Assembly: GCF_000178115.2 (NCBI RefSeq)
Contig: NC_014828.1
Location: 2,803,501 to 2,867,500, forward strand
DNA length: 64,000 nt
Direction: 5' to 3'
From: Ethanoligenens harbinense YUAN-3
GTDB lineage: Bacteria; Bacillota; Clostridia; Oscillospirales; Ethanoligenentaceae
Within the stretch, counting starts at the first letter, position 1, and every line of letters begins with the position of its first letter. Made by a program: the position numbers and the translations under genes. Positions 19,462-59,333 of this stretch are shown here, piece by piece. The notes beneath the pieces are model-generated. The model was given only the letters and a program-made list of their open reading frames with translations, was not told where the DNA came from and ran no database searches.

Positions 19462-19492
19462 ACGATCCGCACGGACCGACTGTGTGGAACTT

Positions 19493-19646
19493 AAACCCAT
19501 CCATGAAGCGAAAACCACACATTCAGGGGTCGGCTTTATACCATTCTGCGTTGCCGTTGGTGGAATACGAAAACCATTTCTTTCACCTCCGCCCTTGCAT
19601 GAATAGACTTATCGTTTTCGCATTTCCTTATTTACGGATCGGCTTT
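19493..19646 (-). repeat. ~154-bp inverted-repeat-bounded element, copy 1
   Basis: Fills the polA-phosphatase gap. Its reverse complement aligns end to end with 59078-59231: both start (A)AGCC-ATCC-TAAATAAGG, share GCAGAATGG/ACAGAATGG and CGTATTCC inside, and end with an inverted copy of the start (CATGGATGGGTTT here). No ORF or RBS is visible. It resembles a non-autonomous mobile element (MITE-like) or a dispersed structured repeat; no transposase is in the window. Confidence 0.65.
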
Positions 19647-19662
19647 TAATCGAGGGATCATG

Positions 19663-51189: not shown

Positions 51190-52896
51190 TCAGAATAAAA
51201 AATACCGCTGCGCGAGCGGCAGCTCGGCGGCCGCCTCGCAGGTGACGACCTCCCCGTCCACCGTGACGGTGTAGGTCTCGGGGTCCACGCGGATATCGCC
51301 CATACGGTCGTTGAACCGCATATCCTTCTTCGAGACGACACGGCAGTTCCGTACCGGGCGAATGATCTTCCGCAGGCCCAGCCGCTCGGGCAAGCCGCCC
51401 TCGACGGCGGCTTGCGAGAGAAACGTGATACTCGTCCGCTCCAGCGCGCGACCGAACCCGCCGAACATATGCCGGTAAAGCACCGGCTGCGGCGTGGGGA
51501 TGGAGGCGTTGGCGTCGCCCATACGGGAGGCCGCGATGAAGCCGCCTTTGAGCACCATCTCCGGCTTGACGCCGAAAAAGGCCGGTTTCCAGAGCACCAA
51601 ATCGGCAAATTTACCCGGTTCCACCGAGCCGAGCACGTCCGCGACGCCGTGCGTGACGGCCGGGTTGATGGTATATTTGGCAATGTAGCGCTTGATGCGG
51701 TTATTGTCGCAGTGTGTGTCGCCGGGCAGACGGCCGCGCTGCTTCTTCATTTTGTCCGCCGTCTGCCACGTGCGGAGGATGACCTCACCCACACGGCCCA
51801 TGGCCTGCGAATCGGAACTCATCATGCTGAAAATGCCCAGATCGTGCAGCACGTCCTCCGCCGCGATGGTCTCGGGCCGGATGCGCGAATCGGCGAACGC
51901 CACATCCTCCGGCACGCTGCGGTCAAGGTGGTGGCAGACCATCAGCATATCAAGGTGCTCGTCCAGCGTATTGCGCGTGAACGGCATGGTGGGGTTGGTG
52001 GAGGAGGGCAGGACGTTTGGGAAAGCCGCCGCGCGGATGATGTCCGGCGCATGGCCGCCGCCCGCGCCCTCGGTGTGATAGGTGTGGATGGTGCGCCCCG
52101 CGATGGCGCGCATGGTATCTTCCACGAACCCCGCTTCGTTGAGCGTGTCGGTATGGATGGCCACCTGCACATCCAGTTCATCCGCCACGCGCAGGCAGGC
52201 GTCGATTGCGGCGGGCGTGCTGCCCCAGTCCTCATGCAGCTTGAGCCCCACCGCGCCCGCCGCAATCTGCGGGCGCAGGGTGGCCGGGTCGGCGGAGTTG
52301 CCTTTGCCCAGAAAACCGAGGTTCATAGGGAACGCTTCGGCTGCTTCCAGCATTTTGGACAGGTTCCACGCGCCCGGCGTGCAGGTGGTGGCGTTGGTAC
52401 CGTCGGCCGGGCCGGTGCCGCCGCCGAACATAGTGGTGACGCCGCTGTAGAGCGCGGTGTCGATCTGCTGGGGGCTGATGAAGTGGATGTGCGAATCCAT
52501 GCCGCCGGCCGTGACGATCAACCCTTCGCCCGCCAGCGCCTCGGTGGACGCGCCGAACGTCAGGCCGGGGGTCACACCGTCCATCACGTCGGGGTTGCCC
52601 GCCTTGCCGATGGCTGAAATGTATCCGTTTTTGATGCCGATGTCGGCCTTATAGATACCGGTAACATCGAGAATGAGCGCGTTTGTGATGATGAGATCGG
52701 GCACGTCCGTCGCGGAACAGGACTGCCCCATGCCGTCCCGCAGGGATTTGCCGCCGCCGAACTTGGCTTCATCACCATAAACGGTACAATCCTTTTCCAC
52801 CTTAGCAAAAAGGTCGGTGTCCGCCAGGCGCACAAGATCGCCCGTGGTGGGGCCGTACATGCCCGCATAGCGCGCGCGGGAGATCTCCACACTCAT
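51190..52896 (-). CDS. ureC: Urease subunit alpha
   Basis: 568 residues. Nickel-site residues: HxH in GMDSHIHF, carbamylated Lys in [10 protein letters not shown], two later His ([19 protein letters not shown]) and the Asp of [10 protein letters not shown]. The flap Cys-His is in MVCHHLD. Hydrolyses urea to ammonia and carbamate. Overlaps ureB by 4 bases (ATGA). Confidence 0.98.
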
Positions 52897-56033: not shown

Positions 56034-56179
56034 AACGTGAACCTCCTGTTCGCCGTCAAAAGCTGCTTCTGTTATGACCGGATGCCTGCAATCCGGTTTG
56101 CCTGAACGGATATGCAGGCGCAAACCGGAGCCGCCTATTCAGACGGAATACTTGCCGCTTTTGCCGGCCTGTGGCTTGC

Positions 56180-58942
<2,763 letters not shown>

Positions 58943-59077
58943 GCTGCACCTCGTCACACTTTTCCAAATTTTCCAGCTGTTCTATCTTTTCACGGCGGGA
59001 CCCTTTCGGAACCTGCCGTCCGCCATGGCTGCCAGGCCGACGGCCCCGCCGCGATCAACTGCCGCATGGAGAACTTA

Positions 59078-59231
59078 GAGCCTATCCATAAATAAGGGGA
59101 TGCAAAAACAGCGAGGCGATTTTTGCAAGACAAGACGGGGGGAGGAATACTTGCCGTATTCCGACGGACGACAACACAGAATGGCGGAAAATCGTCCGCT
59201 GAATTTGCGGTTTTTATTGTATGGATGACTC
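59078..59231 (+). repeat. ~154-bp inverted-repeat-bounded element, copy 2
   Basis: Begins GAGCCTATCCATAAATAAGG and ends with the imperfect inverse (TTTATTGTATGGATGACTC). Inside is the short palindrome GGAATACTTGCCGTATTCC and ACAACACAGAATGG. It aligns over its full length with the reverse complement of 19493-19646. It accounts for most of the secA-ppk gap (58943-59333), which has no gene. Confidence 0.65.
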
Positions 59232-59333
59232 TTCATATCAACTGATTATACCATATTTTCAACGCAGTGTAATGGGATACCCGCAGAAAACCGCCCCGGA
59301 TGTGTAAAACTTGCGTAAACAGGTGCGCCTGCC

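Follow-up and report, generated by a model that had tools for sequence, protein, structure and literature searches.

Nezha is a bacterial MITE of the same architectural class as the elements considered here. ERIC/IRU, RUP, Chunjie and similar bacterial MITEs also belong to this class (PMC2229807, PMC10969869), and BrickBuilt/MITEPgRS of Porphyromonas gingivalis is a MITE derived from the IS5 family, with the ISPg ends GAGACYNTTGCA (PMC4596501). Type II MITEs have been defined (PMC10969869), and the interior-bearing elements described below fall under that sense. Like IS5-derived type II MITEs, they are short and non-coding, carry IS5-like GAG.. ends and have only the terminal repeats in common with an insertion sequence (IS); unlike them, they have one hairpin interior that is common to many end types and genera. 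The Correia (NEMIS) elements of Neisseria are similar in their length (105–155 bp), the TA at their ends, their long hairpin and their intergenic location. The parts of the Correia interior string GACAAGG..CGCAG..TAC-N5-GTA..AACGC are also arranged as in the Clostridia interior, whereas the Correia ends TATAGTGGATTAA differ from the ends found here (GAGCCTATCCATAAATAAGG), which are not of the Correia type. REP/REPIN sequences are short palindromes characterized by the lack of a target-site duplication and by association with a RAYT (Y1) transposase; the present element differs from them in having terminal repeats and a TA duplication.

We analysed a 64-kb stretch of Ethanoligenens harbinense YUAN-3 DNA (the window), in which two intergenic copies of the element are present. 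Copy a (153 bp; 19494–19646, minus strand) lies between the genes for PolA and a low-molecular-weight phosphatase and has the ends AAAGCCGATCCGTAAATAAGG and AACCCATCCATG; by direct reading, its TA target-site duplication occupies 19492–19493 on the left and 19647–19648 on the right. Copy b (154 bp; 59078–59231, plus strand), which is better preserved, lies between secA and ppk, encoding SecA and polyphosphate kinase, and has the ends GAGCCTATCCATAAATAAGG and GAGTCATCCATACAATAA; it is flanked by TA on the left (59076–59077) and by TT on the right (59232–59233), indicating that half of the target duplication has been lost there. The boundaries of both copies were fixed from their ends and TA flanks, and their lengths, together with the absence of a transposase gene, place them within the size range of MITEs (<500 bp). 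The earlier note on this DNA had described the two copies as alike over about 154 bases in opposite orientation, with matching inverted ends (GAGCCTATCCATAAATAAGG-like) and the internal strings CGTATTCC and CAGAATGG, and had stated that neither encodes protein. The ends and strings are all present, and no coding sequence was found in either copy. Smith–Waterman alignment of the reverse complement of 19493–19646 with 59078–59231 extended from end to end, with a score of 112 and about two-thirds identity; in 2000 dinucleotide-preserving shuffles, the comparison that the note had proposed, the mean score was 20.4 (sd 3.3) and the maximum 46.

When folded with DNA parameters, both strands of copy b formed a single long, imperfect hairpin (z about −3.7); its terminal inverted repeats are GAGCCTATCCATA and GAGTCATCCATA, and its whole-length palindrome score is 40. 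Copy a is decayed and has largely lost its pairing (z −0.5). The sequence GGAATACTTGCCG occurs exactly at 56145–56157, beside an unrelated inverted repeat (CCGGTTTGC..GCAAACCGG), and had been put forward as a possible remnant near 56144–56156. It is a bare 13-mer without a match to the covariance model R1 described below, and we estimate that about 0.3 matches of this type are expected in the window by chance. We therefore rejected it as an element copy, as it is unrecognisable as such.

The element has a conserved hairpin interior, the outer stem of which is approximately AAATTTTTC / GGAAAATTT. Inward of this stem, CAAGG and ACGCAG face each other in an internal loop; then come an inner stem, which is variable, another loop with the sequence CGCA and, at the apex, the hairpin GGAATAC-N5-GTATTCC. 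We built R1 from 20 such interiors and accepted matches at E <= 0.01. In the window, R1 matched copy a at 19529–19606 (minus strand; 41.4 bits, E 5.7e-11) and copy b at 59121–59196 (plus strand; 67.1 bits, E 2.3e-19), both of which belong to its training set, and nothing else credible. No other stretch of the superfamily is as conserved as the apical hairpin, which in copy b reads GGAATAC-TTGCC-GTATTCC (59144–59162, plus strand). Across the class, 61 of 291 genomes contained R1 matches, about a fifth of those sampled; many had more than 10 copies each, and E values went down to 1e-21 in a genome outside the training set. In this survey of the class, at most 16 candidates per genome were scored. 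We searched 85,000 species genomes for GGAATACTTGC[N]GTATTCC, the string at the centre of copy b, and obtained 35 stretches, about 25 of which are the centre of elements of 150–175 bp bounded by terminal repeats. The others are mostly coding, and their number is near the 7–8 that we estimate would arise by chance.

Pairing within the interior is accompanied by changes on both sides of the stem. In a 99-member alignment, which was fitted to R1, we counted 163 two-sided cells against 42.7 ± 5.5 in shuffles and 24–46 in slid controls, with two-sided changes in 12 of the 13 pairs. An unfitted 20-member MAFFT alignment gave a result of the same sign (21 against 7.6 ± 2.2). Part of this signal could also come from conversion between the arms of the palindrome.

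In the host genome, R1 gave 11 matches, representing three end-type families with about 10 copies. A third interior-bearing copy with the end type of copies a and b is present at 1687676–1687754 (interior E 6e-12), and an internally deleted derivative, located at about 131.3 kb, has retained its two ends (CCTATCCACAAATAAGGGGAT ... GAACAGGCTC) but not the middle. The remaining matches have two other end types, GGTCTTGTTTGTAAA and GGAACCGCTGATTG. Thus, the idea of a dispersed non-autonomous element has held up, with terminal inverted repeats, further copies and target duplications, whereas that of many copies in the genome has not, as this end type amounts to three interior-bearing copies and one deleted derivative. 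A plain blastn search of 98 relatives with copy b as the query gave no match outside its own genome because the sequences are too diverged, and a covariance model was needed. Further copies are present both in the genome and in relatives, as the note had asked, but the genome does not have the numerous copies that it had suggested.

No intact cognate (DDE_Tnp_1) transposase was found in this genome. The sole DDE_Tnp_1 match is a dead IS5-family remnant of about 812 bp (957955–958766) whose reading frames are broken; it has the ends GAAGCTGTATGCACAAG / GAACCCGTATTCACAAG and is flanked on either side by TTA. With this as the only IS5-family sequence that the genome keeps, copies a and b are orphans. 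We also found no IS bearing exact GAGCCTATCCAT ends, so that the IS5 assignment of the two copies rests on the resemblance of their ends, the TA target and their relatives.

Among these relatives, Anaerotruncus sp. G3 provides the IS5 link. Its interior-bearing MITEs match an intact 847-bp IS5-family element in both their ends and their TA target. This IS (genome G098) is present in seven intact copies that code for PF13340 and PF01609, and it does not contain the MITE interior. The proposed search for a cognate transposase therefore succeeded in Anaerotruncus but not in the genome of the window. TA was found on both flanks in eight of 11 Anaerotruncus MITEs, seven of eight MITEs of a second family (f76) and all seven copies of the 847-bp IS; the target duplications that the note had asked for are thus seen in 15 of 19 MITEs in the families of two relatives, in addition to TA/TA at copy a and TA/TT at copy b. 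For the ends AACRCTGATTAAA in another genome (G540), we saw no parent IS, just end pairs at MITE spacing. An Uhrbacteria end, GAGACCTCTGCAAAA, differs in one base from the end GAGACCTTTGCAAAA listed for ISNme1, an IS5-family element (PMC4596501).

The orthologous sites in a congener are empty. In the draft genome G001, of the same genus, both gene neighbourhoods are syntenic and neither copy is present: the polA–phosphatase gap measures 23 bp against 198 bp in the window, and the secA–ppk gap about 97 bp against about 391 bp. Both loci thus show insertion polymorphism, although the draft is 62% complete and absence could also mean loss in G001. The secA–ppk gap of the host genome contains a further stretch of about 120 bp that is also absent from G001: G+C-rich sequence of about 90–120 bp adjoins copy b at 58985–59077 and is missing from the congener.

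Taken together, these results make it highly probable that copies a and b are orphaned, decayed type II MITEs that were moved in trans by a DDE transposase of the IS5 type into TA. The element, non-coding and bounded by terminal inverted repeats, would have inserted at a TA target and then mutated, and an IS5-type enzyme would have been responsible for the movement of both copies. More tentatively, the interior may work as DNA, forming a strand-asymmetric hairpin by which propagation is aided, possibly through end pairing, through binding of the transposase or a host factor, or by keeping the cost of insertion low. This role is suggested by the retention of pairing and loop sequences together with the lack of an orientation bias relative to neighbouring genes.

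Within the class, elements with this interior carry at least 14 different terminal repeats. Among the ends seen with it are GAGCCTATCCATAAATAAGG (in the window), GAACCTGTTCCCATAG, AGGAACCTCTGAATAAAT, GGGCTTGTTTGAAAA, AACRCTGATTAAATA, GAGACCTCTGCAAAA, TTGAGAGTGGTGAAAA, GTGYCTTTAAAATG, GGGTGTGTTGATAC, AGTACTCTGTAACAC, GGGGCCATTCTGA and TGTCTTTCAAGTG. This diversity raises the question of whether the elements form one MITE lineage whose ends and interior drifted together or whether the interior is an exchangeable module, rejoined repeatedly to new IS ends as a mosaic hyperparasite. We regard the latter, a variant of the preferred explanation and not its opposite, as possible but the less probable of the two forms. 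Apart from the number of end types around one interior, the Anaerotruncus sp. G3 IS without an interior speaks for it, as does the finding that the interior of copy b is closer to other-ended elements elsewhere (identity 0.71 to L134 and 0.67 to L145) than to members of its own end type (0.61 to copy a and 0.59 to the copy at 1687676). On the other hand, interiors in the host genome mostly cluster by end type, with identities of 0.52–0.81 within and 0.37–0.57 between types, showing that ends and interior travelled together recently; recent swapping between ends was looked for there and not seen, and the co-divergence of ends and interior could be of long standing. The pattern of identities is compatible with an old lineage that changed its ends along with its transposases, and also with ends being replaced occasionally.

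It could also be argued that the interior is a host structured RNA, either cis-regulatory or a small RNA, to which the ends are incidental. The conserved hairpin, the sequence-conserved internal loops and the strong two-sided pairing changes would all be expected of such an RNA, but arm conversion in a palindrome can also yield pairing changes, and the copies are bounded by terminal repeats and TA duplications, dispersed in multiple insertions beside unrelated genes and absent from the orthologous sites of the congener. In tandem gene arrangements, with ORFs called mechanically, the element was oriented with the genes in 10 cases and against them in 11. This lack of preference speaks against a host RNA function tied to one strand and favours a role at the DNA level, and a host regulatory element was rejected on the same grounds. 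Moreover, no Rfam family reached its gathering score on the element. We therefore consider a host RNA improbable. Elsewhere in the window, an Rfam match to the 5′-ureB sRNA (52455–52743; 108.8 bits) lies on the strand opposite to a 568-aa ORF (51190–52896, minus strand), which is probably the urease alpha gene; the match may be due to conservation of the coding sequence and not to an RNA.

That the copies are ordinary REP/ERIC-like palindromic repeats or terminators appears still more improbable: they are indeed intergenic palindromes of about 150 bp, but they have terminal repeats and a TA duplication, lack the T-tract form of a terminator, conserve the sequence of asymmetric loops and have an IS5 element with matching terminal repeats in Anaerotruncus. 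Chance resemblance of two intergenic stretches, for which the modest identity of about two-thirds might speak, has a negligible probability and is refuted by the shuffles (112 against a maximum of 46).

Phage records and viral contigs gave no match to the element, and plasmid searches with the core and copy b interiors gave few or none (four records and none, respectively). Plasmids of Subdoligranulum variabile and Anaerotruncus colihominis (L215 and L216) carry elements with GGGGTTGTTTGAAAA / GGGCTTGTTTGAAAA ends and are a likely transfer route. Three species of another family of the order have kept one such MITE at a shared site and with nearly identical sequence (L106–L108; G032, G050 and G009). 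The occurrence in Patescibacteria comes from one metagenome bin only.

The resemblance to the Correia interior is suggestive only. The Correia sequence considered here matched a gonococcal record at 99.1%. In an HMM comparison with the Clostridia profile, 29 of 3000 shuffles did as well, and in pairwise comparison five of 300 (p about 0.01–0.03). An R1 search of a whole gonococcal record did not find the Correia elements. Two Neisseria gonorrhoeae records of 2.17 Mb in the plasmid collection, NZ_CP119140.1 and NZ_CP119142.1, look like chromosomes. The Correia interior is also found in Cupriavidus (blastn E 3e-6), where the terminal repeats are different (AGAGGCGCTATCAAAAT), as on the Cupriavidus metallidurans megaplasmid (L115, 1464–1577), and this element has relatives with other ends (e.g. 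AGAGCGGCTAACAAAACT) in Eleftheria and Paraburkholderia; L210–L213 and L116 also belong to this set. Thus, different ends around a common interior occur there too. The R1 matches in Cupriavidus itself (L147 and L148) were discarded, as they are apparently coding sequence and lie away from the Cupriavidus MITE.

MITEs are usually viewed as deleted ISs with arbitrary insides. Here, the interior has been kept under many unrelated ends; its pairs show compensating changes and its loops are conserved. This implies selection on the inside. Such selection would point either to a still-unknown part of the transposition reaction or to a host factor that all of these elements exploit. We found no description of a shared interior under different ends in the open-licence papers and libraries searched, which is no proof of novelty. 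The covariance model offers a handle for finding such elements systematically and for asking whether the classic Correia elements belong among them. We put forward, as a speculative reading that we hold to be rather unlikely, that the interior is a conserved selfish DNA hairpin module, carried between IS5-type and perhaps other ends in Clostridia and one Patescibacteria draft, with a diverged form in the Correia-like elements of Betaproteobacteria. If this were true, insertion sequences would have a hyperparasite that crosses phyla and to which a common factor binds.
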